DNA of 64,000 bases, taken from contig WOVA01000003.1 in assembly GCA_009773155.1 (NCBI GenBank), positions 62,001 through 126,000 on the forward strand, in the 5' to 3' direction. The DNA is from Elusimicrobiota bacterium. Its GTDB lineage: Bacteria > Elusimicrobiota > Elusimicrobia > Elusimicrobiales > UBA9959. The notes beneath the pieces are model-generated. The model was not told the origin of the DNA, did no database searches, and saw nothing but the letters and a program-made list of their open reading frames with translations. Positions 6,732-64,000 of the stretch are shown in pieces. A program made the position numbers and the translations under genes. Positions within the stretch are counted from its first letter, which is position 1; every line of letters begins with the position of its first letter.

Positions 6732-7577
6732 TTATTTCTTCTTTACGGCCAGACCCTTGTAGACGGAGCTGTTAGCGTCCAGGACGCGCGCCTTCAGGTC
6801 GCGGCCGCCGGAAGAAAGAACTTCCAGCAGGGCGACGCGCTGTATCTCGGTGCCGGCGATCTTGCCGTCGCGGGTCACGGTGGAGCCGATTTTGTAGGCC
6901 TCCAGGTAATCGCCGGCCTTGCACATCACGCCGGAACGCATCATGACCGAGACCGTCGCGCCGGTGAAAGAAAGCCCGTCATCGTCGGAGTCCCCGTTCT
7001 CGAGGCCGGCGATCTCCCCGTCCGCTCTCCAGTCCGGCCCGGCCAGTTTTGTCGGCAGGAAGGAACCCCACTCTTTCTGGTCCTCGGGCATCTCCTCGGA
7101 GAGGTCCGGCAGTTTCTGATAGGAACCTGAGGGGACACCATTCTGCATGGTGTCCCTGGCGGGCCGGACGGCGGGTGCCGGAGCGGCCGCGGGCGGGGCG
7201 GCGGGTGCAGCGGTGACACTATGCGGCATGGTGTCACCGGCCTCGGCGGGAGGAGCCGTTATCTCCTCCACCTGTTCGGGTATAACAGGCGCCGCGGCCC
7301 TGATCTCGTCGGTCAGGCCCGGTATGACCAGCTCCCACTGCGGCAGTATGAGGTCCGGATTGGAGACCAGTCCCATGTTCGCGTTGTATATCCGCCCCCA
7401 CTTGAAAGGGTCGGCGTAATACCTGGAGGACAGGTCCCAGAGAGTGTCGCCATCCACCACCTGATGCCGCTTGGTGACTTTCAGCACCCCGGCGCCCTGC
7501 CGGGCCGCCTCCTGCGCGGCCGCGAAAACCGGCGCCAGCGCCAGCACCGCGGAAATTATCATTATCTTCATCTTCAT
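6732..7577 (-). CDS. LysM domain protein (exported), with two copies of the palindromic repeat in its linker
   Basis: Signal peptide; HQVVDGDTLWDLSSRYYADPFKWGRIYNAN LysM motif; GDTMPHSVT and RDTMQNGVP peptides. Confidence 0.85.
   Translation of the reverse strand: MKMKIMIISAVLALAPVFAAAQEAARQGAGVLKVTKRHQVVDGDTLWDLSSRYYADPFKWGRIYNANMGLVSNPDLILPQWELVIPGLTDEIRAAAPVIPEQVEEITAPPAEAGDTMPHSVTAAPAAPPAAAPAPAVRPARDTMQNGVPSGSYQKLPDLSEEMPEDQKEWGSFLPTKLAGPDWRADGEIAGLENGDSDDDGLSFTGATVSVMMRSGVMCKAGDYLEAYKIGSTVTRDGKIAGTEIQRVALLEVLSSGGRDLKARVLDANSSVYKGLAVKKK
7131..7156. repeat. 27-bp palindrome family, copy in LysM gene (a)
   Basis: ggggacaccattctgcatggtgtccc. Confidence 0.9.
7212..7238. repeat. 27-bp palindrome family, copy in LysM gene (b)
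   Basis: ggtgacactatgcggcatggtgtcacc; paired change in both arms (GGTGAC/GTCACC). Confidence 0.92.
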
Positions 7578-7601
7578 TTCCTCCGGACTCCGTTATTTTG
7601 C

Positions 7602-9131: not shown

Positions 9132-9148
9132 AAGAAACCCGGTTTCCG

Positions 9149-9175
9149 GGGGACACCATGCGGCATGGTGTCCCC
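9149..9175. repeat. 27-bp palindrome family, intergenic copy
   Basis: ggggacaccatgcggcatggtgtcccc, between comM and the CsgG gene. Confidence 0.95.
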
Positions 9176-9183
9176 CCGCGCCA

Positions 9184-10116: not shown

Positions 10117-10157
10117 AAGACCCCTCCTGAATATGAACTGAAAAACGATCCCGCGCC

Positions 10158-11812: not shown

Positions 11813-11829
11813 ATTCTTTGACCCTCCGG

Positions 11830-13749: not shown

Positions 13750-13764
13750 GTGATCACTGTATCC

Positions 13765-15558: not shown

Positions 15559-15566
15559 GTCTTGTC

Positions 15567-17306
15567 TCAAGGCTTAAGTATCAGGTCGAGCACCGAATCA
15601 AGCGCGGACGTCAGGTTGAAATTGTCCTGCGAGAAATGGCGGAAGAACGAACCCGACGAGCCGAAAGCGTTCTCTATATCGTAAAGGGCCTCCTGCGCGA
15701 CGGAGCCCACGCATATCAGCCCGGCCGCGCCCGCTTCGGAGACCAGCCGCTGGGCAACGGCGCCGCGCATATCGTCCCCGCAGGGCTTTACGAAGGCCCG
15801 TTTTATGAACATGGGCCGGCTCTCGGATTTAAGACAGATGGCGTCCAGCGTGGCTAGTACGTCCGCGCAGAATTTATCCTCCCCTGACGCGTACATGAAG
15901 GCCAGCGTCTTGACCCGGGATTTGTCCACCGTGTCCGGGGGTTCCATGGCGGCCAGTTCGGGCAGCGAAGCCCCGGCCTTCGTTCTTGAGGTGGCGGAGG
16001 GATCGCCGCCCTGGTAGACCAGGGTCTCCTCCCCGCCGGGCGTCCCCGGGCCCTGCCCGGGGCCGAAGACCACCGTTTTCTCCCCGGCTGTTTCGCCGGA
16101 GGAGGCTGCCGTAATGGCTTCTATCGGCGACTCGAAAGGGGTGTCGGACCTGGGCCCGGGCGAAAGGCCGCCGGGCTGCTGGTCAGGGGCGCCGACGCTC
16201 AGTTGGGGCTCTCCGACGCTCAACTGAGGGTCTTCGACAACCGCGGCCTGCTCCGCCGGCTGCTCCGCGGCAGGGGCCGACTGCTCTTCCGGCATGGAGA
16301 ACTGGGGCTCAAGGCTTATCCCGCCAGACTGGAACTCGGCGGCCGGCGCCGCCGTCTCCTGAATGGCCGGTTCGGGCTGTTCCACGGGCTCCGGGGCCGG
16401 GAATGGTGGTGCCATTGCCTCCGGCGCTTCGACGGAAGGAGTTTCCGGTTCCTGCGCGTCATCGGTGCCGGGGATCACGAAAGCGCTCTCGAACGCTTTA
16501 AGGTCGTCGCCTGAAGGGAGGGCTTCCTGCGCGTCAGGGGTTTTGGCCTCCGGCTCGGGCTGTTCCGCGGCCGGCTCCGGGAATTCGAAAGGCGAATCCA
16601 TCTTTACCGTGGCATCGAAAGCCGGCGGCTGTTCCGGAACGGCGTCCCCGGCCGGCAGGGATCCGGGAGTCTCCTCCGCGGGTTTCACCTGGTCATCCTG
16701 ACGTTTTTCTTCCATCTCTCCCCCTTGATCTTTGATTTTTTGGGCGGACGGTACTGGGACACCATGCCGCATGGTGTCCCCCGCTGATACACCATTCAGC
16801 ACGATGTCCCCGGCGGACAGCTGCAGAAGTGCGTCTATGTCCGGCACCCCGAAATCCCCGCTCTGATCGAAATAATCCCGCGGCTTATCGGCGGCTTCAG
16901 GCGCGGGAACGGGAGCGGGAACAGTCTCCGGGGCCGGCACGGCCGCGGCCGGCGGCTCCGGGGCAAACTCGAAATTATATTCCTCGCCGGAAAGGTCCGG
17001 CTCGGGGTCTGGCTGCGGTTCGGACTCCGGCAGCACATAGGCCGAAGCCGCTATGCCGGCCATTTCCTCCGGCTCCAGCCGTATCGTCTCGTCCTGACGG
17101 ACCTGCTCCGCCTGGGGAGCGGGTTGATCCTCGGCCTCCCGCCTTATCCTGGAAAAATCCACGGGGCGGGTCTCGGGCATCTTTATGTCCGAGAGAATGG
17201 CCGGCATCCTGTTGAGCAGGCCGTTGAGGTCCGAGAGTATCTCCTCGATGGATTCTTTCTCGCCGTCTTTGTCGGGTTTATCCATAGTAAAGACCCCGCC
17301 CGCCAT
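15567..17306 (-). CDS. Pro/Glu-rich protein of unknown function with conserved-looking C-terminal domain
   Basis: Long uninterrupted ORF, low-complexity acidic linker, globular C-terminus; ends 8 nt before the DnaA-like gene. Alternative start at 17285. Confidence 0.75.
   Translation of the reverse strand: MAGGVFTMDKPDKDGEKESIEEILSDLNGLLNRMPAILSDIKMPETRPVDFSRIRREAEDQPAPQAEQVRQDETIRLEPEEMAGIAASAYVLPESEPQPDPEPDLSGEEYNFEFAPEPPAAAVPAPETVPAPVPAPEAADKPRDYFDQSGDFGVPDIDALLQLSAGDIVLNGVSAGDTMRHGVPVPSAQKIKDQGGEMEEKRQDDQVKPAEETPGSLPAGDAVPEQPPAFDATVKMDSPFEFPEPAAEQPEPEAKTPDAQEALPSGDDLKAFESAFVIPGTDDAQEPETPSVEAPEAMAPPFPAPEPVEQPEPAIQETAAPAAEFQSGGISLEPQFSMPEEQSAPAAEQPAEQAAVVEDPQLSVGEPQLSVGAPDQQPGGLSPGPRSDTPFESPIEAITAASSGETAGEKTVVFGPGQGPGTPGGEETLVYQGGDPSATSRTKAGASLPELAAMEPPDTVDKSRVKTLAFMYASGEDKFCADVLATLDAICLKSESRPMFIKRAFVKPCGDDMRGAVAQRLVSEAGAAGLICVGSVAQEALYDIENAFGSSGSFFRHFSQDNFNLTSALDSVLDLILKP
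16756..16780. repeat. 27-bp palindrome family, copy in Pro/Glu-rich protein gene
   Basis: gggacaccatgccgcatggtgtccc; encodes GDTMRHGVP. Confidence 0.93.
16785..16811. repeat. Degenerate adjacent copy of the palindrome family
   Basis: gatacaccattcagcacgatgtcccc; encodes GDIVLNGVS directly before GDTMRHGVP. Confidence 0.7.
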
Positions 17307-18643: not shown

Positions 18644-19464
18644 TTCAGCGACTCGCCGGCGCAGGCGAGGACGGCCGCGGCGGAGGCGGCGGCGGTCTCG
18701 GCGCGCAGCACCGTCGGTCCCAGCGTGAAGAACTCCGCGCCCTTGCGCTTCGCCAGGTCCAGTTCGTCCGGAGAAAAACCGCCTTCAGGACCTATAAAGA
18801 CCAGGACTTCCGCGCCCTTCTCAAGCCCCGCCGCTATCGCGGTCAGCGGCTTCGCGTCTTTTCCCGGAGCGCCGATCAGCTTACGGCCGGGCAGTTCCAG
18901 CAGCTCGTGAAAATGCGCCGGCGGCAGCACCGCCGGCAGGTCGCCGCGCTCGCACTGCTCGGCGGCGGAAAGTATTATGCCCTCGTAGCGCTCGCGCCGC
19001 CGCTCCCATTCCTCGTCGAGCCGGCCGGTCGCAGAGCTCGGAACAGCGGCACTGCCGCCACAGGTGTCGGAGGCTATGCCGACGACCCCGGCACCGACAG
19101 CGGGCAATGCCGCCCTGATCCGGCCGGCCTGCGCCCGCTCGGAGAAGAAGGGCCTGAACTCCGCGGCGCCGGCTTCCGTGGCGTGGCGCAGCGTCTCCTC
19201 CAGCGCGGCCCGGGCGGCGAGCGCGTGGCAGATGACGGTCCTGAACGCCGGCGGCGACCAGGGCAGCGGACCCGTCACGCGGCCCGAGACCGAGCGGCCC
19301 ACCGCCTCCAGTTCGGCCAGGAAGCGGCCGCCCGCGCCGTCGAAGACCTTTATCGTATCGCCGGGCCTGGCGCGCAGGGCGCGCGAAAGATGCTCGGCCG
19401 CGTCCCCCCCGAGGAGGAAGCGGCCGTTATTAATGGAGCCGGGCGGCAGGTAATGCTGGCTCAT
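18640..19464 (-). CDS. rsmE: 16S rRNA (uracil1498-N3)-methyltransferase RsmE-like
   Basis: [40 protein letters not shown]. Confidence 0.9.
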
Positions 19465-22599: not shown

Positions 22600-23259
22600 T
22601 TACTTGTCCTCGCCCCGCGGGGACTCTTGCCCACCCTGCGGGGGCCTGTCCTCCCCCTGCGGGAGCCCGCCTTCGGCGGTCTCTTCCGCCGGCGGCTGGG
22701 CTTCCGCTTTCTTCCTGCCTATCCTCACCCTGGCGGGGCGCAGCACCTTCTCCCCGTAGTAAAATCCTTTCTGCAGCTCGTCCACCACCAGGCCGTCCCG
22801 CTCCTCCCCCGTCTCCACTATGCCCATTATCTCGGCCGCCATCGGGTCGTAAGGCTTGCCGGCGGTCTCCATGGGCCTTATGCCCTCGTTCTCGAAGGTC
22901 TTCGAGAACTCCCTGAAGATCATCTCCAGCCCCTTCATCAGCTCGCCGGCCTGGGCCGGGGATAGGCCTTCCGGGCTTTCCTGCACCTTCGCTATGTGCA
23001 GGTGCGCCTGCAGCAGCAGGTCGTAGAGCGGCAGCAGCTTCGAAAGCAGCTCCGCCTTCCCCCATTTTATCAGGTCCGGCCTCTCCTTCTCCACCCGCTT
23101 GCGGTAATTCTCGAAATCGGCCTTGAGGCGCAGGAGCTGGTCGTAATACTCCCTCTCTTTGGACGCCGGCTCCGCGGGAACGCCCTGCGGCACGGTGTCC
23201 TCCGTTGACGCGGACCCATCGGCCCCGTCTTCGTGCTTCTTATCCTTGCCGTGCTTCAT
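22600..23259 (-). CDS. grpE: Nucleotide exchange factor GrpE with palindromic-repeat peptide in N-terminal tail
   Basis: LRLKADFENYRKRVEKER, LLPLYDLLLQAH; N-terminus contains EDTVPQGVP. Confidence 0.93.
   Translation of the reverse strand: MKHGKDKKHEDGADGSASTEDTVPQGVPAEPASKEREYYDQLLRLKADFENYRKRVEKERPDLIKWGKAELLSKLLPLYDLLLQAHLHIAKVQESPEGLSPAQAGELMKGLEMIFREFSKTFENEGIRPMETAGKPYDPMAAEIMGIVETGEERDGLVVDELQKGFYYGEKVLRPARVRIGRKKAEAQPPAEETAEGGLPQGEDRPPQGGQESPRGEDK
23177..23201. repeat. 27-bp palindrome family, diverged copy in grpE
   Basis: gggaacgccctgcggcacggtgtcc. Confidence 0.7.
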
Positions 23260-25321: not shown

Positions 25322-25963
25322 TTACCTGAAATGATCGCGCAGCATGCGCACCAGCCCCTCGGTGGCCTTGCCCGGGATCTCCTCCCCCTCCCAGTTGATG
25401 GAGAAGTGGGCCTCGCGCTGCGTCGGCTTTACGTAGGTCTCGTACATCGGCATGACGGTGGCCAGTATCTGGTGGCGTATGCCCTCTATGTCGCGGCCGC
25501 GCTCGCTGATGTCGCGCTGGACGCGGCGCAGGACGGCGGTGACCATGCCGGTGGAGACGAAGATCTTGTAGTCGCACATGGCGGCTATCTTGGGGAAGTA
25601 CAGCGCGTAAAGCCCTTCGACCACTATCAGCGGCGTGGACTTGAGCGGGATGCTTTCCTTCTCGCGGGTATGCAGCTTGAAGTCATAGACGGGCTGCTCT
25701 ATGGGCTTGCCGGAGCAGAGCTCGCCCAGCTGCTTGGCCGCCAAGGCCGCGTCTATGGCGTCGGGGTGGTCGAAATTATAGTTCTTGCGCGCCTCGAAGC
25801 TCAGGTGCGTCAGGGGCCGGTAGTAGTTGTCCAGCGAGAAGAGCTCACCCTCTATGCCTATCCTGCGGCATTCGTCTATCAGCCTCCTGGCCAGCGTGGT
25901 CTTGCCCGACCCGGAGCCGCCGGCTATGGCGAGGATGAAACGGGATTTCCTGGTGTTATACAC
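25322..25963 (-). CDS. Uridine kinase-like P-loop kinase
   Basis: AIAGGSGSGKTTLARRL, NFDHPDAID. Confidence 0.85.
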   Translation of the reverse strand: MYNTRKSRFILAIAGGSGSGKTTLARRLIDECRRIGIEGELFSLDNYYRPLTHLSFEARKNYNFDHPDAIDAALAAKQLGELCSGKPIEQPVYDFKLHTREKESIPLKSTPLIVVEGLYALYFPKIAAMCDYKIFVSTGMVTAVLRRVQRDISERGRDIEGIRHQILATVMPMYETYVKPTQREAHFSINWEGEEIPGKATEGLVRMLRDHFR

Positions 25964-26858
25964 TGTTTACCTTGCTTTTCCGGATTTTTTTCCGCCCCGG
26001 CTTCGACTTCGGCTTCGGCCGGAGCCCTTTTGACCCGGCCGCTTTGGAACGGGAAGTTTTTGTCTTTTTCCCGCAGGCCGGGCGGACGGAGGAGGCTCGC
26101 CGCACCGGGGCATCAGCCGCCGCTACGGCGGTTTCCGGTTCAATCCCGAATATCTCTCCGGCTTCAGCCGATGACAGCGTGGCGTGGGCCGCGCCGGTTT
26201 TTGCCCCCGTAAGGGCGGCTACCGCGGAGGAATCGCTTACCAGGTCCTGGTGGTTCACATGCCGCAGCAGGAACAGAAGTTCCGGTTTCCCGTCAAGCCG
26301 CGCGCCTACCCCGTAAAGCGCCGCCGCCACGTGCTTGCACATCTCCGCCCAGTCCGGACATGAGCATTCCAGCTTGATCTCCTTGGGAGAGGGAAACAAA
26401 CCGCTGTCCCGGCGCGTCATAATTCCCATCACCCGCTCCGAAAGCTTTCCCTCAAGCAGTTCCATCAGGGAGCCGATGCCGCCGGCGCATTCGCGGCATA
26501 AAGCTTTCCACCGGTCTCCCCTCACCGGCGCGACCGTCACTTTTACCTTGTATAAAGACGAGCCGCTGACCAGCGCTTCAACTTCCCCACGGCGGATATC
26601 CAGGTGAACCACCGACCCGTTGCGCACGTACGAGCGGCCGCGCGGCATTCTGTTCGAGTAGTCGCTGTAGGATTCCAGGTTGGCGCACCATGCTTTGCCC
26701 CAGAAAGAGCCGGCGATGGTTCTCCCGTCCAGCCTGACCGGCGCCTGAGTTCCCCCGCTTTTAAATAATTTCGCGGCGGCCTTTTCGGCGCGGCGCCGTT
26801 TCTCCGCAACGCTCACATATGGCTTGTAAAAGTAACTCGAACGTCTCCACCAGCCCAT
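25956..26858 (-). CDS. SWIM zinc-finger protein
   Basis: LECSCPDWAEMCKHVAAALY (CxCx8CxH). Confidence 0.88.
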   Translation of the reverse strand: MGWWRRSSYFYKPYVSVAEKRRRAEKAAAKLFKSGGTQAPVRLDGRTIAGSFWGKAWCANLESYSDYSNRMPRGRSYVRNGSVVHLDIRRGEVEALVSGSSLYKVKVTVAPVRGDRWKALCRECAGGIGSLMELLEGKLSERVMGIMTRRDSGLFPSPKEIKLECSCPDWAEMCKHVAAALYGVGARLDGKPELLFLLRHVNHQDLVSDSSAVAALTGAKTGAAHATLSSAEAGEIFGIEPETAVAAADAPVRRASSVRPACGKKTKTSRSKAAGSKGLRPKPKSKPGRKKIRKSKVNSV

Positions 26859-26870
26859 AGCCGTTCCCCT

Positions 26871-29603
26871 TTATTGCGCCCCGGAGGCGCGGTTGATATC
26901 AAGCGACACGAACTTCAGCAGTTCCTTGTTGTCCATTTCCGTAAGCAGCTTTTCCCCGCCGCCGCCGATTACGCTGTCGGCCAGCCGCGTCTTACTTTCT
27001 ATCATTTCGTCTATGCGCTCCTCAAGTGTCCCCCGGCAGACGAACTTGTGCACCAGCACGTTGCGCTTCTGCCCTATCCGGAAGGCCCGGTCCGTGGCCT
27101 GGTTTTCCACCGCCGGATTCCACCAGCGGTCGAAGTGTATCACGTGCGACGCTTCAGTAAGATTCAGGCCTGACCCGCCGGCTTTGGCGGTAAGCACAAA
27201 GAACGGCGGGCCGTTCTCGGCCTGGAAAGCGTCCACAAGGCCCCGGCGGGCTTTTACCGGGGTTCCGCCGTGCAGCGCCAGCCCCGGCCGCCCGAATATC
27301 CCCGCCAGGAATTCAAGCAGCGGCCCGGTCATCTCCTGGTACTGCGTGAACACCAGCGCCTTTTCCTGGCGGGAGGCTATCTCCTCGGTTATCTGCCGCA
27401 GGCGCTGGAACTTGCCGCTTTCGGCCTCCGCGTAGGCCCCGTCGCGCAGCCAGTGCGACGGGTGGTTGCAGATCTGCTTGAAGCGCGTCAGGTAAGCCAG
27501 CACCAGGCCGCGGCGCTGTATTCCTTCCGCCTCTTCCACCTTTTCGGCCAGTTCGCGGACGGCAACCCCGTAGAGCGCGGCCTGTTTGGGCGCCAGGCCG
27601 CAATAAGCCTTCACTTCCGTTTTCTCCGGCAGGTCCGCGATCACGTTTTTATCCGTCTTCATCCGCCGCAGGATATAGGGTTTAACCAGCGCGCGCAGCG
27701 CTCCCGGCGCGCCGCCGTCCCCGGCGCCGCCTTTTATGAACTCGCCGAATTTTCCGGCGGAGCCCAGCAGGCCGGGGTTGAGAAAATCGAAGATAGACCA
27801 CAGATCGCCAAGGCGGTTTTCCACCGGGGTGCCGGTAAGTACAAGGCGTTGCGCGCACTTGAGTTCTTTAACCGCCCGGGTCTGGCGGGCCGCGGGATTC
27901 TTTATGGCCTGCGCCTCGTCCAGCGCCACCACGTCCCAGTTGTTTTTGCGCAGACTTTCCAGCCTTGCCACAAGCCCGTAGGTCGTCAGGATCAGGTCAT
28001 AACCGGCCGCGGCCCCGCCGAAATCCTTCTGCGCGGCCTTCCAGTCTTCCGGGGATAATTCGGAGGGGTGCAGGATACGGTATTTAAGCGCCGGAGCGAA
28101 ACGCAGGATTTCCGCCCGCCAGTTGGCCAGCAAAGACGCCGGCGCCACCAGCAGGCTGGGGCGGGCGGATTTACCCGCGCGGCCCCGGGGTTTGCGCGCC
28201 AGCAGCAGCGCCAGCACCTGCACGGTTTTCCCCAGCCCCATATCGTCGGCCAGGCAGGCGCCAAGCCCAAGTTCCGTCATAAACCGCAGCCAGCCCACTC
28301 CGGTTTTCTGGTAAGGCCGCAGTTCGGCCAGCAGTCCCGGCGTCGCGGAATGCCCGCCGTTTTTGCCAGGCTCGCGCAGTTCTGCCAGCGTAGCCTCCAG
28401 CCAGGCGCCGGCCTTGAGCCCGCTCCATTCCCGCACCGCCGCATTCCCCGCGCCGCTTTCGGACGCGCCGCCGATATCCGCGCCGGAGAGCAGGCGCATG
28501 GCGTCGGCTAAAGTAACGCCTTCGCCGGCCGACCGTTTCATGCTCTCCCAGTGCTCAAGCGCGGCCTTGAGCTTTTCAGGGTCGGCTTCCACCCAGCGCC
28601 CGCGTATCAGCGCCAGCCCGCCGGACGCTTTCATCAGCGCTTCCCAGTCCGCGTCCGTCAGCGGCTCGCCGTCCAGGCTCTTTTCCACCCTGAAATCCAG
28701 CAGGGTATTAAGCCCCAGCGCCGCGCCCGCCGCGTTGCCCAGCCTGACGCTTACCCGCGCCCTGGGCGCCTGGCCGGCGCGCCACCAGTCGGGCAGGCGC
28801 ACCACCACCCCGCCCTCCGCCAGAATGGGCGCTTCCTTAAGAAAACGGTAAGCCTGGGGCGGAGTCCACGCCAAAGGCTTGAAAAGCGCCCCGGTTTCCA
28901 GCAGTTCGCGGGCCAGCGCGCTTTTTTCCGACGCCAGGCGCACCGGGGACAACAGGCGCAGCAGGGCCGCTTTATTGCCTTCCCCGGCGTATTCCTTAAG
29001 CGCCTCGGCCAACGGCTGGTATTTCAGCCGGCCATGCCCTGACATTCCCGCGGCGTAGGTGGCCATAAAGGCGAACGGGTAATTTTCGTTTTTGCGGTTC
29101 TCCGCCAGGTGGAAAACCACCCGGCCCACGGAATGCCAGGCGGGGTTCAGGGATTTTATAAATTCCGCCGGCCCGCCCGGGTGGGCGGCGGCCAGGGCCC
29201 GCGCGTGCGCGTCCAATAAGACCCAGACAGCCGTCAGGGCTTCTCTGGTGAGATACTCGCCGCCTTTCATCGGGGGCAGGCGCTCAAGCCAGGCCCGGAT
29301 TTCGGCCTCCGGCGCGGGTAAAGGAGCGGGAATTTGCGCGGCGCCGGGCGTGACGCCCTGGCAGAACAGGGAAAGATAACGGCGCCCCAGTTCCCGCCAG
29401 AACGAAACATGCGCCGGCAGGGGCGTCTCCAGTTCGCGCGCAACCAGGTGCAGCAGCCCCTGCGCGCTTCCCTGAGAAAAAGCCTTTCCGGTGCGCTCCG
29501 CGGCCGGGGCCTCCGGCCAGGCCTCCTCCCCGCCGGCGGGATCCCAATATAAATGCCCGCGCGGATTGACCGCGATGGCGGGGTTTAAGAGAAGATCAGC
29601 CAT
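26871..29603 (-). CDS. SNF2-family DEAD/DEAH helicase
   Basis: GLGACLADDMGLGKTVQVLALL, DEAQAIKN, HFDRWWNPAVENQATDRAFRIGQ. Confidence 0.95.
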   Translation of the reverse strand: MADLLLNPAIAVNPRGHLYWDPAGGEEAWPEAPAAERTGKAFSQGSAQGLLHLVARELETPLPAHVSFWRELGRRYLSLFCQGVTPGAAQIPAPLPAPEAEIRAWLERLPPMKGGEYLTREALTAVWVLLDAHARALAAAHPGGPAEFIKSLNPAWHSVGRVVFHLAENRKNENYPFAFMATYAAGMSGHGRLKYQPLAEALKEYAGEGNKAALLRLLSPVRLASEKSALARELLETGALFKPLAWTPPQAYRFLKEAPILAEGGVVVRLPDWWRAGQAPRARVSVRLGNAAGAALGLNTLLDFRVEKSLDGEPLTDADWEALMKASGGLALIRGRWVEADPEKLKAALEHWESMKRSAGEGVTLADAMRLLSGADIGGASESGAGNAAVREWSGLKAGAWLEATLAELREPGKNGGHSATPGLLAELRPYQKTGVGWLRFMTELGLGACLADDMGLGKTVQVLALLLARKPRGRAGKSARPSLLVAPASLLANWRAEILRFAPALKYRILHPSELSPEDWKAAQKDFGGAAAGYDLILTTYGLVARLESLRKNNWDVVALDEAQAIKNPAARQTRAVKELKCAQRLVLTGTPVENRLGDLWSIFDFLNPGLLGSAGKFGEFIKGGAGDGGAPGALRALVKPYILRRMKTDKNVIADLPEKTEVKAYCGLAPKQAALYGVAVRELAEKVEEAEGIQRRGLVLAYLTRFKQICNHPSHWLRDGAYAEAESGKFQRLRQITEEIASRQEKALVFTQYQEMTGPLLEFLAGIFGRPGLALHGGTPVKARRGLVDAFQAENGPPFFVLTAKAGGSGLNLTEASHVIHFDRWWNPAVENQATDRAFRIGQKRNVLVHKFVCRGTLEERIDEMIESKTRLADSVIGGGGEKLLTEMDNKELLKFVSLDINRASGAQ

Positions 29604-29613
29604 ATGTACTACC

Positions 29614-29838
29614 TTAAAACCCCATTTCTATGGTGGAGGTCCGGCCGGCCAGACTGTCGGAACCGGCTTCAAGTTTTAACGCGGAACTGCCGGTAACCAG
29701 CACCTTGACCGGATTGATGTCGACCAGTTGTTTAAGCTGCGGCCCCCAGTCCGGAAGGTTCTGGACCTCGTCAAGGAAGATATAGGCCTGCTCGCCGTCG
29801 TTGGCGGCCTGGTTGACGGTCGCTGTATCTGCGATCAT
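29614..29838 (-). pseudogene. Fragment of AAA_14/DUF4143-type ATPase
   Basis: IFLDEVQNLPDWGPQLKQLVDINPVKVLVTGSSALKLEAGSDSLAGRTSTIEM; lacks Walker A and C-terminal domain. Confidence 0.75.
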
Positions 29839-30879
29839 TTCCTTGACCCCAGTTCTTTTTCTATTTCTTTGATGCTCGGCAGGCTGGATTTAATGCTCCT
29901 GGGCAGCGACTGCGTTAATTTATACTCGGAAACGCCTATGGGTTTGCGGATGTCGCTTAAGGCGTATTCGGCGACGATTCCATCTTTCTTCTTGCATATA
30001 AGTAGGCCTATTGTAGGGTTATCCTGTCCGGAGCGGACCTGCCTGTCTACCGCTGTAAGATAAAAGTTGAGCTTGCCGGCGAATTCCGGTTCGAACGCAG
30101 TTGTTTTTAACTCGATAACCACATAACTGCGGAGTTTCACTTTCCCCGACCCGTAAGGGGACCTGCCTGCCGACATAAGCGAAACCGGCTCCCAATTCCA
30201 GAAGGAACTTCGTTATGTGTTCAACAAGAGCGTTTTCCAGCTCTCTCTCGTCATGTTCCCGTGTAAGGTTCAGGAAATCGAATATGTAAGGGTCTTTCAG
30301 CGTCTGTTTCGCCAGATCGGACTGCGGCTTAGGCAGAACTGCGGCGAAATTATTTGGCGATCTTCCTTCCCGGTTATAAAGTCCGCTTTCCATCTGGTGG
30401 ACGAGAACGCTCCTGCTCCAGTTATACTTAACGGTGTTACGAATATAAAAAAGCGCTTCTTTCACGCTCTTGCAACTGGTAATTATTTCCCTGTTATGCC
30501 CCCACGGAATTTGAAAAATCGCGGCCAAGGAAGCCCCGCCAATTTGTCCCACAGGCTGTGGGACAATTAGATTGCCGCCGCTATAGAACAAACACCACTT
30601 TTTCATGTATAGAAGATTGGTACGCGAAAACCCTTTCATCCCGGGAAATTCCGACATTAAATCCCTGCTCAACTGTTCTATCAGCCCGTCGCCCCATTTA
30701 GAGTTTTTCTGTTTTTCAATCAGGTCCGCGCCAAGCTCCCAATAGAATTCAAGAAGCTGGGTGTTTACGGCTACGGCGGCCTTAAGCTGGGCGTTAAGGA
30801 TTTTCCCCTTTAACTCCGCAAGCCAGGCCTTGTAGGTTTTATCGCGTATAAGGCTGTATTTCACAACTATCGTCCATGA
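29835..30879 (-). pseudogene. YhcG/DUF1016 PD-(D/E)XK nuclease, frameshifted with loss of the catalytic segment
   Basis: N-terminal part in ORF 30019-31038 and C-terminal part in ORF 29835-30176 lie in different frames; the (F)IDLLFYH segment present in the neighbouring paralog is missing at the junction. Confidence 0.8.
30544..30566. repeat. Palindrome in variable region of YhcG pseudogene
   Basis: TTGTCCCACAG g CTGTGGGACAA. Confidence 0.85.
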
Positions 30880-30997
30880 ATTTATGAATGAGGGCGATGG
30901 TGATCTGCTCAACCTGACTTTTAGGGTCGGGCATCTTGTCCACAAGGATATCGCGGGCGGTATCAATGCGGCGTTTGGTGTCGGTGTCAAGCATTGT

Positions 30998-32203
30998 TCA
31001 TCCTTGTTTTCCCGTCGGCAGGATGGGGCGGACGACATCCAGCAGTTGTCTGGCGGTAGGCAGTTTGCCTTTAAGCTCAGGCGGGAGCTTAGAGTGCAGG
31101 TGGTATTCAGCCACGCCGATGGGATTGGTCTTGCTCTTTAGGGCAAATTCTACTTCCAGATTATCCTTCTCCGCGCAAAGGATGATGCCTATTGAGGGGC
31201 GATCATCGGGCGCGCGTTCTTTTTCATTCAGCAGGTTGAGATAGAAATCCATCTTGCCGGCACACTCGGGTTCAAAAGGGCCTACCTTTAATTCAAAAGC
31301 CACCAGCGCTTTAATAAACCGGTGGTAGAAGAGCAGGTCAATGAAATACTCCTTCTGCCCCAGCGCCAGGCGGTGCTGGCGGCCCACAAAGCAAAAACCG
31401 TAACCAAGCTCAAGAATGAATTCGCGCAATCGCGCAAGAAGCCGGTCTTCCAGTTGCCGCTCCCTGATCTCGCGGCGGATGCCGAGGAATTCCAGGTTGT
31501 AACTGCTCTTGAGCGCCTCTTCGGCCTGCTCGGCAAGATACTCCGGCAAGGCGAGCGGAAAGTTGTGCGTCTTCTTTTCCAGCGCCGCCCGTTCATACGC
31601 GCCGGCTTTGATCTGATTCAACAGGACATTGCGGGACCAGCCGAAGCGCGCAACGGCCCTGAGGTAATAAAGGCGGCCGGCCGGCTCAGTCAATTTGTTC
31701 AGGATTAGCAGGTTGTGCCCCCAGGGAATTTCTGCGACAAGCTGTCGCAGAAATCCCAGAATCTGTTCCTCGTTCATTTTGGCTGCGGACTGCAGCCGAA
31801 TTGTCTCATCTTTTGCCCCTTTGTCCAATTTGGCGACAGCTTGTCGCCAAATTGCCTCATCAGCGTAGGTAAGATAAAAACGCTTCATATCCCGCAGATT
31901 ACGCGGAGAAAAACCAGTCATTGCAGGGAACTCCCTCTGCAAATCTTTCGCCGCCATTTCAACCACCGAATCGCCCCAGTTTAATAACTCCTGTTTTTTT
32001 ACAATAGCGTGTCCGATATCCCAGTAGAGCAAGATTAGGTCGCGATTGACCGCGCGGGCGGCGGAAAGACGGGCCGTTTGAATGCGTTTTTTGAGGGCTG
32101 ACAGGAACTGCTCGTAATCGGAACCCGCAATAACGGCGTTTTTTATGACGGTATGTTTTGGAAATTTAAATGTTTTGCGTTTAGTCATGATGTCATGCCG
32201 CAA
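30998..32203 (-). CDS. YhcG/DUF1016 family PD-(D/E)XK nuclease domain protein
   Basis: GFSPRNLRDMKRFY, EIPWGHNLLIL, KEYFIDLLFYHRFIKALVAFELKVGPFEPECAGKMDFYL. Confidence 0.88.
   Translation of the reverse strand: MRHDIMTKRKTFKFPKHTVIKNAVIAGSDYEQFLSALKKRIQTARLSAARAVNRDLILLYWDIGHAIVKKQELLNWGDSVVEMAAKDLQREFPAMTGFSPRNLRDMKRFYLTYADEAIWRQAVAKLDKGAKDETIRLQSAAKMNEEQILGFLRQLVAEIPWGHNLLILNKLTEPAGRLYYLRAVARFGWSRNVLLNQIKAGAYERAALEKKTHNFPLALPEYLAEQAEEALKSSYNLEFLGIRREIRERQLEDRLLARLREFILELGYGFCFVGRQHRLALGQKEYFIDLLFYHRFIKALVAFELKVGPFEPECAGKMDFYLNLLNEKERAPDDRPSIGIILCAEKDNLEVEFALKSKTNPIGVAEYHLHSKLPPELKGKLPTARQLLDVVRPILPTGKQG
31728..31754. repeat. Palindrome 1 in YhcG variable region
   Basis: ATTTCTGCGACA agc TGTCGCAGAAAT. 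Confidence 0.9.
31826..31854. repeat. Palindrome 2 in YhcG variable region
   Basis: CAATTTGGCGACA gct TGTCGCCAAATTG, 13-bp perfect arms. Confidence 0.92.
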
Positions 32204-32618
32204 ACTGGTTCAGGGAGACATAGTCCTTAAACAGGACGCGCCGTGCATTGCCGGAGCGGAGGAAGAGCTTGATGACGGCTGCGGCGGTGAGCGTTTTGCC
32301 GGTGCCGGTCGCCATTTCAAACAGAAAGCGGTCATTACCGTCCCTTACGGCCTTGCCGATAAGCGGTTTCTTGTCCTCGGATTTGGCCTCAAGGACGATA
32401 AACGGGAAACCCTTGGCGTCCAGCAGCAGGAAGTCGATGGAGCCTTTGCGCGTTTTCTCGAAGTTCCCGCCAAGCGCGTCCAGATCGGATGACTTGAGTG
32501 TTACACTTGGCTCAAGGCAGATATTGGCGGGTGCGCTTCCTTCCGCAAAGAAACGCCAGCCCGCCGCTTCCAGCAGTTTGTTGATTTTAATGCGGGCCGC
32601 AGCTTCTTTATTTTCCAT
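32193..32618 (-). pseudogene. Type I restriction HsdR remnant (internal deletion, truncated)
   Basis: HsdR N-terminus (FIVLEAKSEDKKPLIGK) fused directly to helicase motif I (FEMATGTGKTLTAAAVIKLFLRSGNARRVLF), then stops. Confidence 0.8.
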
Positions 32619-32629
32619 TCAGAACTTCC

Positions 32630-33721: not shown

Positions 33722-33728
33722 CGGTCGT

Positions 33729-33998
33729 TTATTCCCTGACTATCTCCACCCCGTTATAATCCAGCCAGTCCAGCGAGAGCGGGCTGACTATCGCGTTGGC
33801 CGGCACGGCCAGCCGCTTCTGGCCCGGCTTGACCATCCGCCGGAGCTCCCAGTCGCTGAGGAAGACTTTTCGCGCCGGTGGGACCTTGGGGCCGCCATAC
33901 GGTATGGTGTCCCCGGCCGGACACGAGGATGCCCCTTCCGGGCGATCCCGGAAAAGGCGCTCGTAAAGCGCGTCGGCAATGTCGCCACGGGTAAGCAT
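33729..33998 (-). CDS. Small BMC-associated protein with embedded palindromic repeat
   Basis: C-terminal LRRMVKPGQKRLAVPANAIVSPLSLDWLDYNGVEIVRE resembles the 'VPxxAIVTPLA' segment of small EutQ/EutT-associated BMC proteins; contains GDTIPYGGP. Confidence 0.55.
   Translation of the reverse strand: MLTRGDIADALYERLFRDRPEGASSCPAGDTIPYGGPKVPPARKVFLSDWELRRMVKPGQKRLAVPANAIVSPLSLDWLDYNGVEIVRE
33888..33914. repeat. 27-bp palindrome family, diverged copy
   Basis: ggggccgccatacggtatggtgtcccc. Confidence 0.75.
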
Positions 33999-34055
33999 AT
34001 TTCAAACCGCTCGTCTCCACGCGAGAAGAGCGCGCCGTCTCCGAAAAATGCTCTC

Positions 34056-34349
34056 TCAGGCCTTTACGGAGATCCGGGCCAGGTACTTGTCCAGGTCGTC
34101 GGCCGGGCGCGGTATCACGTGCACGGCGACCAGCTCGCCCACTTTCTGTGCGGCGGCCGAGCCGGCCTCCACGGCGGCGCGCACGGCGCCGACCTCGCCC
34201 ACGCAGAGCGTGGTCACGTAGCCGGAGCCGATCTTCTCATAGCCCAGCAGCCGCACCCTGGCGGCCTTGGCCATGGCGTCCGAGGCCTCTATCATGCCGA
34301 TAAAGCCCTTAGTCTCTATCATTCCCAGCGCTTCTTTAGGTTCAGACAT
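34056..34349 (-). CDS. BMC-H shell protein (EutM/PduA-like)
   Basis: [58 protein letters not shown]. Confidence 0.96.
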
Positions 34350-34519
34350 TTTCGCTCCTTGATCCATCAAAAACCAGCCGCCGGGAGGAGCCCGCCCTTC
34401 CGGCGCGCTCTCCCGCGGTCCCTGCGCAAAATTAACTATATAAAATTATGCGGCCGGCGTGAAATCAGGCTAGGCAAAACCAGGTTTCGCTCCGCATGCG
34501 GTAAAAACAGAGCTCATAG

Positions 34520-42002: not shown

Positions 42003-43002
<1,000 letters not shown>

Positions 43003-43010
<8 letters not shown>

Positions 43011-44652: not shown

Positions 44653-46095
44653 TTACGCTATCCTGAGGTCGCCGACCACGCTGCACTGCAGCGGGCGGAC
44701 GAAATGGCTGGTCTTGGTGATGCCGTCGCCGGTCGGCGTGCCGATGGACATGGAGGCGTAGCCCTCGCCCAGGCCCAGGCCGTGCAGCGTGCAGCCGTTC
44801 TTGACGAAGATGGAGCAGGCCATGCGCCTCCCCATCTTGGTCATGTTCTTCACGTTGGTCGAGTACATCCCGGCGCTGTGATGGTTGTTCCCCTCCGCGC
44901 GGCGTGCCAGTTCTATGGCGGCGTCGATGTCGCGGGCCACGGTCACCGGCAGCACGGGCATGAGCTGCTCGGTGTGCACGAATACGTGGTCGTTGGGCAC
45001 TTCCGCCCAGAGCACCCTGATATCGTCCGAGAGGTTCAAACCTATCGCTTTAGCTATGACGGAAGGGTTCTTTCCGATGAAATCGCGGTTGACCTTGGGC
45101 TCCGGGCCGGGCTCGGGGATGGCCAGCTTCGAGAGCTGGTCCATCTGCGCGCCGGTGAGCTCGTAGGCGCGATGGTCCTTGCGCATGGCCTCGAGGAAGC
45201 GGGTCCGCGCGGCCTCGGTGACTATCACTTCCTTCTCGGCTATGCAGAGGACGTTATTGTCGAAACCGCAGCCGGTTATTATCTGCTCGGCGCAGTCGGG
45301 GAAAACGGCGGTCTCGTCGACGACCACCGGCGGATTGCCGGGGCCGGCGGCTATGGTCTTGCAGGCTTTGCCGGCGGTCATGGCGACTTTGACTATGGCC
45401 GGACCGCCGGTGACGATGTTCAGCTGCGTGTCCGGGTGGCAAAGGAGCTGCCTGGTGGCTTCCTGCGTGGGCTTGGCTATGGTGGTGACCAGGTTGGCGG
45501 GGCCGCCCGCCGCGACGATGGCATCGTTAAGGACGCGCACGGCGTCGGCCACGCAGCCCTTGGCCGCGGGATGGGGCGAGAAGACGACGGCGTTGCCGGC
45601 GGCCAGTATGCCGATGGCGTTGGAGATGATGGTGGCCACCGCGTTGGTGGAAGGGGTGATGGCGGCGACGACGCCGAAGGGCGCGTACTCGACGAGGGCC
45701 AGCCCCTTGTCGCCGGTATAGGCGACGGCGCGCAGGTCCTCTACGCCGGGGGTCTTGTCGGCGCAGACCAGGTTCTTGAGGACCTTGTCGGCCACGCGGC
45801 CCATGCCGGTCTCGGCCACGGCCAGTTCGGCCCAGCGGCGCGCGTTGGCGCGCGAGACTTCGCGCATGGCGGAAATTATCTTTTCGCGGGCCTCGAGGCC
45901 CATATCCTGAAAGCCGGGCTGGGCCCGGTTGGCGGCGGCCACGGCCTCGTCGACGGTGTCGAAGACCGGGCCGGCGGACGAGGACACGGGGGACACCATG
46001 CGGAATGGTGTCCCCAATGGCGTACCCTCGGCGGTCTCGAGGTTCTTCACGACCTCGGCGACTATCTTCCTGAGTTCTTCCTCGTTTATGGACAT
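44653..46095 (-). CDS. eutE/pduP-like: CoA-acylating aldehyde dehydrogenase (EutE/PduP-like) with encapsulation-like N-terminus
   Basis: GVVAAITPSTNAVATI, CGFDNNVLCIAEKEVI; N-terminus NEEELRKIVAEVVKNLE. Confidence 0.95.
   Translation of the reverse strand: MSINEEELRKIVAEVVKNLETAEGTPLGTPFRMVSPVSSSAGPVFDTVDEAVAAANRAQPGFQDMGLEAREKIISAMREVSRANARRWAELAVAETGMGRVADKVLKNLVCADKTPGVEDLRAVAYTGDKGLALVEYAPFGVVAAITPSTNAVATIISNAIGILAAGNAVVFSPHPAAKGCVADAVRVLNDAIVAAGGPANLVTTIAKPTQEATRQLLCHPDTQLNIVTGGPAIVKVAMTAGKACKTIAAGPGNPPVVVDETAVFPDCAEQIITGCGFDNNVLCIAEKEVIVTEAARTRFLEAMRKDHRAYELTGAQMDQLSKLAIPEPGPEPKVNRDFIGKNPSVIAKAIGLNLSDDIRVLWAEVPNDHVFVHTEQLMPVLPVTVARDIDAAIELARRAEGNNHHSAGMYSTNVKNMTKMGRRMACSIFVKNGCTLHGLGLGEGYASMSIGTPTGDGITKTSHFVRPLQCSVVGDLRIA
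45989..46015. repeat. 27-bp palindrome family, copy in aldehyde dehydrogenase linker
   Basis: ggggacaccatgcggaatggtgtcccc; read in an alternative phase (GTPFRMVSP). Confidence 0.95.
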
Positions 46096-57975: not shown

Positions 57976-57979
57976 GGCG

Positions 57980-58515: not shown

Positions 58516-59202
58516 ATGGCAGGCACTAAGATACAGGCGCCGGAAGGCGCGGCGGCGGTGCTCGACAAGGGCTTCGTGAAGCTGGTCGATTTTATGGGCG
58601 GGGATATGCGCGCGGTCGAATCGGCGCGCGTCTCGTTCGGTTCGGTCTCCAAGGGCGAGGACCGCGACCGCAAACTGCTCGAGTACCTGCTGGAGCACGG
58701 CCATTTCTCCCCCTTCGAACACTCCGTCTTCCAGCTCCACATCAAGTGCCCCATCTTCGTGGCCAGGCAGTGGTTTCGCCACAGAATTGCCTCTTACAGC
58801 GAGATCAGCGCGAGGTATACCGAGGTGCACGACGAGTTCTATATCCCCGAGGCTTTCAGGGCGCAGGACACGGTCAACCGCCAGGGCTCCGTGGAGGGCA
58901 AGCTCGACCAGAAGAAGCTCTCGGCGGAATACGCGGCGGCCATAGAAGCTTCCTACGCGGCCTACTCCGCGCTGCTCAAGGCCGGCGTCGCCCGTGAGAT
59001 GGCCCGCGGCGTGCTGCCGGTCTCGCAGTACACGCAGTTCTACTGGACCATAAACGCGCGCGCCCTGCTCAATTTCCTCGACCTGCGCCTGGACAAGCAC
59101 GCCCAGCTGGAGATACGCCGCTACGCCGAGGCCATAGCTGAAATTTTCCGGGAGAAGATGCCGTGGACCTGGGCGGCGCACCGGAGGCTGAATGACAAGT
59201 AG
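58516..59202 (+). CDS. thyX: Flavin-dependent thymidylate synthase
   Basis: HGHFSPFEHSVFQLHIKCPIFVARQWFRHRIASYSEISARY (RHRxxSxxxxSxR). Confidence 0.97.
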   Translation: MAGTKIQAPEGAAAVLDKGFVKLVDFMGGDMRAVESARVSFGSVSKGEDRDRKLLEYLLEHGHFSPFEHSVFQLHIKCPIFVARQWFRHRIASYSEISARYTEVHDEFYIPEAFRAQDTVNRQGSVEGKLDQKKLSAEYAAAIEASYAAYSALLKAGVAREMARGVLPVSQYTQFYWTINARALLNFLDLRLDKHAQLEIRRYAEAIAEIFREKMPWTWAAHRRLNDK

Positions 59203-60151
59203 GCCTGCCTTGTTCGCGGCGGCACTGCTGCTGGCCGGAACAGGGCGGCTATGCCCGCAGTCGGTGCCGGGAGCACTGCGACCGGCCGCCGCCCAGGCCT
59301 CCGCCCAGACGGTGGTTTTCAAGCCGCAGGAAGGAGGGATACGCCGCGGCGACATGGAGCTCTACGCCAAATTCTCCGGTATCGCCACCGCCCAGGACGT
59401 CTATGACGTCTACTCCCCCTTCGACGGGCGGATAGAGGAAGTAATCGGAGAGCTGTTCGACTTCATCACTCCCAAGACCTCGCTCGCCAGAATGGTCTCC
59501 AGCGAAATGGCGGCGATGATAGACTACACGGGCCAGGACAACAGGGCGCAGATGGAGAAGCGCTGGAAGGGCGTATACAAGATTTACGACGTCAACCCGG
59601 ACCAGACCGGGATAATCTCGGCCGTGCACACGGCGCCCAAGAAGACGGTGACCAACGGGGAAAGGCTTTTCTCGGTCGCCAGGAAGATACTGGTCATAGG
59701 CAGGAACACCGAGCGCCTTTACTATCCCCCCCGCGCGGGCATGACCGCCGCCGTCCGCTACGCCAGGGACCCCGCCGTCAGGCTGACGGCCAGGGTCACC
59801 GGCGTCGTCCCGCTGACCGAAGAACCGGGATTTTATCGCCTGTGGCTGGAGACCGACCAGATAAAGGAGAAGATCCGCATCGGCCACCAGTTCGACGGCG
59901 ACATCCTGCTGGGCAAGGCCTCCGGGGTCGAGATAGCCCCGAGGCAGGCTATCGTGGAAAAGAACGGCCGGAAATACCTGATGACGGAAATAGAGACCGG
60001 TCTGATGAATTTCGAAGAGGCGGAGATAACCCGCCGAGGCGACGTGATATTGCTGCCGGAGCTCCCCGCAGGGGACACCAGGCCGCGTGGTGTCCCCGCC
60101 AAGGACAAAGTACAGGAGAGAACGGATGGAAAAAGCAAAAAAAAGCCCTAA
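59192..60151 (+). CDS. Efflux periplasmic adaptor-like (HlyD/CusB-type) protein
   Basis: Signal peptide; YSPFDGRIEEVI; IVEKNGRKYLMTEIETGLMNFEEAEI. Confidence 0.65.
   Translation: MTSRPALFAAALLLAGTGRLCPQSVPGALRPAAAQASAQTVVFKPQEGGIRRGDMELYAKFSGIATAQDVYDVYSPFDGRIEEVIGELFDFITPKTSLARMVSSEMAAMIDYTGQDNRAQMEKRWKGVYKIYDVNPDQTGIISAVHTAPKKTVTNGERLFSVARKILVIGRNTERLYYPPRAGMTAAVRYARDPAVRLTARVTGVVPLTEEPGFYRLWLETDQIKEKIRIGHQFDGDILLGKASGVEIAPRQAIVEKNGRKYLMTEIETGLMNFEEAEITRRGDVILLPELPAGDTRPRGVPAKDKVQERTDGKSKKKP
60071..60097. repeat. 27-bp palindrome family, copy near 3' end of adaptor gene
   Basis: ggggacaccaggccgcgtggtgtcccc; encodes GDTRPRGVP. Confidence 0.92.
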
Positions 60152-60821: not shown

Positions 60822-60868
60822 AGCGCCCGGGGGGACGCCGGGGGACTCGGCTGAAACAAGGAGCTGAT

Positions 60869-62077: not shown

Positions 62078-62090
62078 GCCTCGCGCAGCG

Positions 62091-64000
62091 ATGAAGAGCA
62101 AGTTCTTCTGTCTTCACGCCCACTTCCGGGGCCAGGCGGTCGAAAACCCCTGGACGGGCAACTGGGAGCGCGACCCTTCGGCCCGTCCCTGGCACGACCT
62201 GAACCACCGGTCGGCCGCCGCGCTCTTCCTCCCCTGCGTCAGCGGGGGATACCATGCCGCATGGTGTCCCCGTACCGGGCGCCGGGACCGCGCCGCCCTG
62301 GCGGAGAGCTTCATTGACTGCTACGAGCGCGTCAGCTTCGACATCTCCCCCCGCCTGCTGGACTGGCTCGACGCCTTCTTCCCCGAGCTGCCTTCCGCTT
62401 TCGCCGAGGCCGACCGGCGCTCCGCCAGGAACTTCGGCGAAGGCTCCGCTCTGGCCCACCCCTGGCCCCACGCGATACTGCCGCTGCTCTCGGCCCGCGA
62501 CAAGCGCGCGGCCATACGGTGGGGCCTGGACTATTTCGAGCACAAGTTCAAGCGGAAGGCCTCCGGCATGTGGCTGCCGGAGACCGCCGCCGACGGCGAT
62601 ACGCTCGCCGCGCTCTGCGCGGCCGGCGTCTCCTTCACCGTCCTGGCGCCGGCCCAGGCCCACGCCTTCCGCAAAGAGAGCATTGGCAAATGGGAACCCG
62701 CCAACGCGCACAGCCTGGACGTTTCAGTTCCTTACGAGTGGCGCGCGCCGGAAGGCGGCTCTCTGTCCGTATTCTTCTCAAGCCCCCGCCTGGCCGGCCT
62801 GCTGCACGACGGCATGGGAGCGCCCGGGGAATTCGCGGCGGCCGTTGACGCCGCCCTGCCGGCCGGCAAAGGTTCCGCCCTGGCGGCCTGCGCTTTCGAC
62901 TGGGAACGCCACTGCCGGCGCCATCCGGACGCCGGCGCCCGCTTAGCCGGGTTCCTGTCCTCCGTGCACAAGAGCGGCCGCTGGGCCCTCACAAACTTCG
63001 CCTCTTTCCTCAGGGACAACCTCCCCTCCTACGAGGTCTCGGTAGTATCCCCCTCCGCCTCCTCCTGCCCGCACGGCGTGGAGAGATGGGCCGGTGAATG
63101 TTCCTGCCGCGCCGGCTCGGACCCGCGGCGGCCGGTGAAATGGCGGTCCGCCCTGCGCGCCGCCGCCTCCCTGCTGGAGGAACGCGTCACCGGGATATAT
63201 GACCGTGAGGCCGCCGCGCTGTTCACGGACCCGGCCGGGGCCTTCGAGGCGGCCGGGCGCGCCCTGGCCTGCCCCGACCCGCACGAAGCCCGCAGGTTCC
63301 TTTCCGCCGCCTTCGGCAGGCAGCCGCGGCCCTCCGAGGCCAGGACCGCCATGAAATTACTTCACATGCAGCGCAGCCGCCTGCTTTCGCTCGACAGCGA
63401 CGCCTGGTTCTTCGACGATATGAACGGTCCCGCGGCCCGCGGCGCGCGCCTCTGGGCCGCCGCGGCCTGCGACGCCGCCGCCGGCTTCGGGGACAACCCG
63501 GCGGACGCTTTCGCGGCCGCGCTGGAAGCCGGGGAGAAAGGCGCGGGCGGGGATTTCCTGGCCGCGGCCGCCGATTTCAGGTTCGGCCCGGCGCAGGCGG
63601 CCTGCGAAAAAGCTATTTTTCTCGCCGCGGGGCTGCCACAGCCCCCCCGACCTGGCAGGTTCCATATACTGGTCAATTACGAGGACCGGTTCGAAAAGGA
63701 CGGCACCCGTTTCTACGCCGCCTGCCTCAGGGTGGAGAACCGGGACACGCTGGCGAACGGGGAGTTCGCGACGCTGGCCGTGATACCCGCCGGTGACGGC
63801 GCCTTCTGCCTTGCCGCGCCGGCGTCGGACCCGGCCTCCGCCGCCTCCCTGTTGTCAGGCCTGCCGGGCGCCGGCTCGGCCCGGGAGGTACTGGAACTGG
63901 CCGGAAAAAGATTTCCCGTGCGGCTCCCGGCCCGCGATCTGCCCGGCGACGCGGGCTGGCTGGCGGCCGCCGCCGGGCTGGCCGGCGGAGAGCCCTCCGC
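62091..64000 (+). CDS. GH57-like / DUF3536 family protein (3' truncated by window edge)
   Basis: My translation from ATG 62091: MKSKFFCLHAHFRGQAVENPWTGNWERDPSARPWHDLNHRS...YERVSFDISPRLLDWL...SLDSDAWFFDDM; sampled segments stay open (not every codon checked). Confidence 0.75.
   Translation, partial: MKSKFFCLHAHFRGQAVENPWTGNWERDPSARPWHDLNHRSAAALFLPCVSGGYHAAWCPRTGRRDRAALAESFIDCYERVSFDISPRLLDWLDAFFPELPSAFAEADRRSARNFGEGSALAHPWPHAILPLLSARDKRAAIRWGLDYFEHKFKRKASGMWLPETAADGDTLAALCAAGVSFTVLAPAQAHAFRKESIGKWEPANAHSLDVSVPYEWRAPEGGSLSVFFSSPRLAGLLHDGMGAPGEFAAAVDAALPAGKGSALAACAFDWERHCRRHPDAGARLAGFLSSVHKSGRWALTNFASFLRDNLPSYEVSVVSPSASSCPHGVERWAGECSCRAGSDPRRPVKWRSALRAAASLLEERVTGIYDREAAALFTDPAGAFEAAGRALACPDPHEARRFLSAAFGRQPRPSEARTAMKLLHMQRSRLLSLDSDAWFFDDMNGPAARGARLWAAAACDAAAGFGDNPADAFAAALEAGEKGAGGDFLAAAADFRFGPAQAACEKAIFLAAGLPQPPRPGRFHILVNYEDRFEKDGTRFYAACLRVENRDTLANGEFATLAVIPAGDGAFCLAAPASDPASAASLLSGLPGAGSAREVLELAGKRFPVRLPARDLPGDAGWLAAAAGLAGGEPS
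62245..62271. repeat. 27-bp palindrome family, copy inside GH57-like gene
   Basis: ggggataccatgccgcatggtgtcccc; read in the third phase (GYHAAWCP). Confidence 0.93.

Follow-up and report, generated by a model that had tools for sequence, protein, structure and literature searches.

A 27-bp palindrome retained in frame within genes of an Elusimicrobiota bacterium and its candidate TIRYT-type transposase

A 64,000-bp stretch of the genome of an Elusimicrobiota bacterium (assembly GCA_009773155.1, contig WOVA01000003.1, positions 62,001 to 126,000; hereafter the window) contains 11 copies of a 27-bp palindrome with the consensus GGGGACACCATGCSGCATGGTGTCCCC, almost all of them inside protein-coding genes. 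The element is best explained as a non-autonomous hairpin of the terminal inverted repeat (TIR) or repetitive extragenic palindrome (REP) type, probably moved in trans by a TIRYT transposase and kept in genes as an armless form compatible with the reading frame and free of stop codons (probability about two in three). A second phylum also carries the core of the element, there as part of a longer hairpin that is largely excluded from long open frames.

All copy positions listed in the initial annotation, which was made from the window sequence alone, were recovered with starts correct to within one base (Table 1). Its description of a family dispersed within genes was retained, and its count of about 12 copies was corrected to 11. 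Eight copies differ from the consensus by no more than three mismatches, compared with none in 100 shuffled sequences, and three are more diverged. The copy at 16785 is weak by itself, yet it forms the second unit of a 30-bp tandem register recurring at other loci. The copy at 9149 is indeed the sole intergenic one, with no gene called there, and the other hosts are open reading frames (ORFs), as had been proposed. The exception concerns the plus-strand ORF assigned to the copy at 33888, which is spurious; this ORF and an intergenic location were both rejected in favour of an 89-aa minus-strand gene that differs in length by 24 bp from its counterparts in related species. As single-stranded DNA, the 27-mer folds into a 12-bp hairpin (z = -4.9) with GGGGACAC/GTGTCCCC as its foot. 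Within the consensus, which comprises nine codons, no stop occurs in any of the six frames, in agreement with the earlier description.

The genome containing the window (G000; 2.76 Mb, 93 contigs) has 137 copies at up to three mismatches, while the reversed-pattern control gave 0, so that the counts are well above chance. The location of copies was analyzed in 745 kb (27% of the genome) of contigs read whole or largely, a sample favouring contigs known to hold copies; genes, predicted with a home-made simple hexamer caller, cover 91% of it. This sample contains 70 copies at up to five mismatches (reversed-sequence control, 0), of which 54 (77%) lie in called genes. The in-gene copies are read mostly in one phase, with 39 encoding GDTM[R/P]HGVP, 10 encoding GTPCGMVSP, and 5 encoding GHHAAWCP (chi-square p 7e-9). 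Two forms were distinguished. Class A copies (33/70) have asymmetric conserved flanks, GGTAC-N-core-CGCTGATGC, and encode ASAGDTM[R/P]HGVPVP, and the other 37 are bare, without a conserved flank. An extension of the hairpin into the flanks of the G000 copies was considered and rejected, the flank pairing being not consistently raised.

The host genes encode methionine synthase MetH, with the element between the pterin- and B12-binding domains, UvrA, with the element between the interaction and DNA-binding domains, a KsgA-type rRNA dimethylase, an AMP-binding enzyme, a nucleotidyl transferase, and a response regulator. In the window, a microcompartment aldolase and an aldehyde dehydrogenase both carry it in the linker behind an N-terminal peptide. 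The residues around the copies are only mildly linker-like, with Ala and Pro raised 1.2-1.3 fold. With several positions in interdomain linkers, the sites were apparently picked by tolerance. The one-phase bias (39/54) and the linker positions in MetH, UvrA, the aldolase, and the aldehyde dehydrogenase could also be read as signs that GDTM[R/P]HGVP is a positively selected modular linker peptide. We consider this very improbable, given that 16 of the 70 copies lie outside called genes, 15 in-gene copies are read in other phases, the hosts are functionally unrelated, and the copies of the other phylum, Candidatus Poribacteria, are mostly located outside long open frames.

Three congeners (G001, G002, and G003) were compared with G000, with one genome per species. 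They are without the element at most comparable sites. In 68 empty-site comparisons, which are not independent as one site may count against two or three congeners, 60 length differences were multiples of three, and the modal net gain was 24 bp for bare and 30 bp for flanked copies. Certain insertions are common to G000 and G003, G001, or G002. The ortholog comparison proposed in the initial annotation yielded mostly frame-preserving differences, and the same peptide at the same sites in orthologs of distant phyla was not found.

The congeners contain 11-15 copies each, roughly 10-fold fewer than G000, and none of the 12 copies of G001 is exact. In a survey of 248 genomes of the phylum, 7 had any match at up to two mismatches, and more than one match was observed only in this genus. 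An exact search across about 85,000 species genomes, a list omitting the window's own genome, detected the 27-mer only in the congeners, one CG08 Elusimicrobia metagenome-assembled genome (MAG), and one Candidatus Poribacteria groundwater MAG, the last with more than 60 stretches. At up to three mismatches, the Poribacteria MAG contains 328 copies (controls, 0). A lone class A copy was noted near the end of a contig from another genus (G031:C37:664-690, locus L023), either transferred or on a misbinned contig. The 27-mer could instead be a functional binding site, such as a chromosome organisation, repair, or uptake signal, spread by selection; the high copy number would suit such a role, and some protein probably reads the ends GGGGACAC and GTGTCCCC, which are invariant in 56 aligned Poribacteria copies and nearly invariant in G000. 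This explanation is, in our estimation, improbable, only slightly less so than the peptide one, since the sequence is missing from almost every other genome sampled in the family, order, and phylum, differs about 10-fold in copy number among congeners, is absent from most comparable congener sites, and had no match in the viral contigs searched.

In the Poribacteria MAG, almost every core sits in the middle of a longer hairpin that has 8-9 extra AT-rich bp per arm. These arms are varied yet complementary (TTATTC/GAATAA, TTAATTC/GAATTAA, and AAAATC/GATTTT) and show strong covariation: 95.3% of cells are paired vs. 80.9% after shuffling, 168 double changes were counted vs. 56 expected, and slid structures are at most 44% paired. 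In G000, the arms are absent, and the Elusimicrobia form corresponds to the 27-mer core. On average, 2.3 of the 6 frames of the armed element contain a stop, whereas 85 of 88 cores are stop-free. Of 108 Poribacteria copies, 26 lie in open frames of 150 codons or more, vs. 62 of 70 G000 copies (Fisher p 4e-18), random positions falling in such frames in 87.5% and 95% of cases, respectively. When the threshold is lowered to 100 codons, 55 of the 108 Poribacteria copies lie in an open frame; the exclusion is thus evident for long frames and less marked for short ones. The stop-bearing GGGGAC families of G000 are located in genes in 2/22, 2/14, and 3/13 copies vs. 54/70 for the 27-mer. The gene occupancy of stop-bearing and stop-free elements in both hosts fits a retention in genes governed by stop and frame compatibility; insertion preference is a separate matter, not demonstrated by these data. 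The initial annotation proposed that the palindrome spreads because it preserves the frame; such compatibility is a likelier explanation of the persistence in genes than of the spread.

A search for a transposase of the RAYT (REP-associated tyrosine transposase)/IS200-like kind, also proposed earlier, revealed three RAYT-like Y1_Tnp genes in G000 (Pfam PF01797, above cut-off), every one flanked by GGGGAC...GTCCCC-type repeats. The gene on contig C45 has 44-45-bp hairpins GGGGACACAATACCTATTTCG... on both sides, and these hairpins also flank the same transposase gene at G002:C44 and G003:C68. On the 38-kb contig C45, at least eight hairpins of this type were observed in a region of about 20 kb surrounding the TIRYT gene (L068-L069; 14843, 16959, 18175, 25536-35028), a cluster that suggests local hopping. 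The Poribacteria relative (G065:C28) is 58% identical to the G000 protein, and its flanking repeat TTATTCCGGGGACATAATACCTATTT includes the TTATTC outer stem seen in the Poribacteria 27-mer arms. In the Poribacteria MAG, two near-identical TIRYT genes (L299:6-659 and 1744-2412) are neighbours, with a leucine-rich-repeat-like gene and the same repeat between them. In the tree of 37 Y1_Tnp proteins, those of G000, G002, G003, and G065 formed one clade (support 100/97), and the single Y1_Tnp gene of G001 was placed in a different one. Thus, three of four Elusimicrobia species and the Poribacteria MAG carry a common TIRYT-type Y1 clade with flanking repeats GGGGACA.... An orthologous copy of the 27-mer in G003, GGGGACACAATGC..., has arms (AAT/ATT) that resemble the ones in the transposase hairpins and is intermediate toward these hairpins. 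Judging by these sequence relationships, an enzyme of the TIRYT clade likely acts on the 27-mer.

Several local changes resemble hairpin-mediated repair. Among the tandem 30-bp doublings, one clean gain or loss was found between G000 and G003 (C34:36841 vs. G003:C6), an orthologous copy shows matched changes on both arms (C18:3562 vs. G003:C53), and one site bears flanked copies in opposite orientation (C34:73760 vs. G001:C23). Palindromes might accordingly multiply without a dedicated transposase, by template switching during replication or gene conversion between hairpins, and be merely tolerated in genes. We regard this as unlikely, as such multiplication leaves unexplained about 140 unrelated sites in one species vs. 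11-15 in its congeners, and also why a second phylum has the same core together with the same transposase clade.

Under the preferred explanation, mobilization in trans, a single-strand hairpin with the GGGGACAC/GTGTCCCC foot would be multiplied by a TIRYT-class Y1 (IS200-like) transposase whose own repeats begin with GGGGACA. The Poribacteria form, ancestral or alternative, would carry AT-rich arms, often with stops, and be largely kept from long open frames. In the Elusimicrobia form, the arms would have been lost, leaving nine codons stop-free in six frames, so that insertions in genes, several of them in interdomain linkers, would often be tolerated. Purifying selection would remove most other insertion outcomes, and most of the remaining copies would be in the frame GDTM[R/P]HGVP. 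We infer the action of the transposase on the 27-mer and the loss of arms from the comparisons above, and any direction of transfer would likewise be deduced. The proposal in the initial annotation of a small selfish or REP-like palindrome gains support from the copy excess, the empty congener sites, and the RAYT-like genes flanked by GGGGAC...GTCCCC-type repeats.

A number of observations weigh against this explanation. Neither a target duplication nor a precise empty site was resolved in the congener alignments, where exact junctions are unreadable because flank identity is often only about 75-95% and the linkers are rich in indels. The net gains in these comparisons are often below 27 bp; at the GrpE site (23176), the congener linkers are longer and a simple insertion is not seen, nor is one obtained at 60071. 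No transposase gene directly flanked by the 27-mer was found among the fetched Y1_Tnp loci of 41 family genomes (one or a few per genome, not all hits) or of the Poribacteria MAG; the repeats on either side of the C45-type genes are GGGGACACAATACC... and not GGGGACACCATGC. The inner sequences differ as well, CCATGC in the 27-mer vs. AATACC in the transposase hairpins. The pattern in G001, a Y1_Tnp of another clade together with no exact copies, comes from a set of four genomes and does not reach significance (Fisher p 0.07). Finally, the origin of the class A flanks (GGTAC/CGCTGA) has no explanation in the proposed mechanism. The more specific scenario, in which a hairpin of two phyla changed its niche by losing stop-bearing arms and became, without them, an in-frame nine-codon cassette, moved by one transposase clade in both hosts, is put forward tentatively, at slightly less than even odds.

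TIRYT genes with GGGGWSAS repeats (TIRtrons) and self-complementary families were described by Di Nocera 2013 (PMC3733652), and most TIRYTs belong to the TnpAY1 subclass 2.1 (PMC6006769). The former paper also mentions intragenic REPs in some species, uvrA included, as well as the longer Rickettsia palindromic element (RPE) RPE-1, and equates intragenic repeats of R. conorii with RPE-4 and RPE-6, which are CGTC-tagged and without an associated transposase (PMC3733652). The 27-mer is similar to TIRYT terminal inverted repeats in its GGGGWSAS-type ends, its self-complementary dispersed family, and the presence of Y1_Tnp genes flanked by such repeats. It differs from them in flanking no transposase gene here and in the location of most copies in genes in frame, TIRYT families not being reported as mainly intragenic in the sections of that paper considered (PMC3733652). 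With REP/RAYT systems it shares a short, high-copy, non-autonomous hairpin in a genome with a Y1 transposase, and it corresponds to the general notion of a REP as a short, dispersed, high-copy palindrome specific to a species or genus. A mostly extragenic location, also typical of REPs, was not observed in G000 (54/70 in genes), the value for Poribacteria being 26/108 within open frames of 150 codons or more. Unlike GTAG REPs, the element has no GTAG or GTGG tetranucleotide; GTAC or a variant stands beside the hairpin in 33/70 copies, and the rest are unconserved. Because it lacks a flanking position at the transposase and is mostly not extragenic, it was not assigned as a plain TIRYT or REP member. 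Like an RPE, the palindrome sits in frame within many unrelated proteins as an insertion that is absent in orthologs. Compared with RPEs, it is shorter and appears unrelated in sequence, judged by the lack of a CGTC tag in the consensus; it also has a candidate transposase clade, identified here, and a second form located largely outside long open frames. The element functions like an RPE and, by its ends, sits near TIRYT repeats, being related to them and not a plain member. No literature on such repeats in Elusimicrobia was found.

Other repeat families were noted in G000. A second dispersed family, GGCCGGTCGCAGWGCTCCCGGCACCGACTGCGGGCAATGCCGCCCTGWTCCGGCC, of about 51-55 bp, occurs in the window at 19087-19128 and 59230-59271 and has 33 copies in the 745-kb sample, 29 of them in genes. 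One of its copies is nested in a class A 27-mer at C18:10242-10322 as a 51-bp (17-codon) in-frame insert. This family was noticed as an inverted pair, and its interpretation as a simple hairpin was rejected on the hairpin-potential test. The palindrome family GGGGACGCTGATTAC..., represented once in Table 1, has more copies on other G000 contigs. A GGGGAC family in which GGGGACGTTGTTTAG and its complement are separated by about 78 bp is located mostly outside genes on C10, C27, C34, and C15 (for example, C27:42355 and 42434).

Table 1. Copies of the 27-bp palindrome and one further repeat in the window (positions are those of the window)
Feature	Positions	Mismatches to consensus	Location	Phase, peptide, or other details	Comparison with congeners
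Palindrome	7131..7157	3	LysM-domain protein gene 6732-7577(-)	phase 0, RDTMQNGVP	
Palindrome	7212..7238	3	second copy within LysM gene 6732-7577(-)	GDTMPHSVT	
Exact palindrome	9149..9175	0	intergenic, between 9131 and 9184		
Class A copy and tandem diverged 30-bp unit	16749..16811	up to 3 (core 16755-16781); 7 (unit 16785-16811)	gene 15567-17306(-)	GTAC flank, CGCTGA flank; both phase 0	missing from G001 and G002 orthologs
Diverged copy	23176..23202	5	close to N terminus of GrpE gene 22600-23259(-)	EDTVPQGVP	
Diverged copy	33888..33914	4	89-aa gene 33729-33998(-), adjoining bacterial microcompartment genes	AGDTIPYGGP	host gene 24 bp longer than in all three
Palindrome	42795..42821	2 (matched pair preserving the palindrome)	gene 42003-43010(-), linker between N-terminal peptide and DeoC/LacD aldolase domain	GDAMPHGVP	net 15 bp longer than all three
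Palindrome	45989..46015	up to 3	gene 44653-46095(-), linker between N-terminal peptide and aldehyde dehydrogenase domain	phase 2, GTPFRMVSP	net 15 or 18 bp longer than G001 and G002
Palindrome	60071..60097	up to 3	gene 59192-60151(+), near C terminus; efflux adaptor in the initial annotation	GDTRPRGVP	
Class A copy	62236..62277, core 62245-62271	up to 3	called plus-strand gene starting 62091	flanks GCGTCAGCG and GTACCG; phase 1, GYHAAWCP	net 30 bp longer than G001
62-bp palindrome GGGGACGCTGATTAC...GTAATCAGCGTCCCC, other GGGGAC-ended family	839..900		intergenic	stops in all six frames	

How short palindromes insert in frame in many proteins has been a question ever since the Rickettsia elements, which have no known transposase. 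With armed and gene-adapted forms and a shared candidate transposase clade at hand, both the identity of the mobiliser and the part played by frame and stop compatibility can be tested directly. The element also shows how mobile DNA provides proteins with new linker sequence, examples being MetH, UvrA, a KsgA-type methylase, and microcompartment enzymes. If the more specific scenario of a niche change by loss of arms is true, no earlier in-gene palindromic element would have had both a named candidate transposase and an armed counterpart to match.
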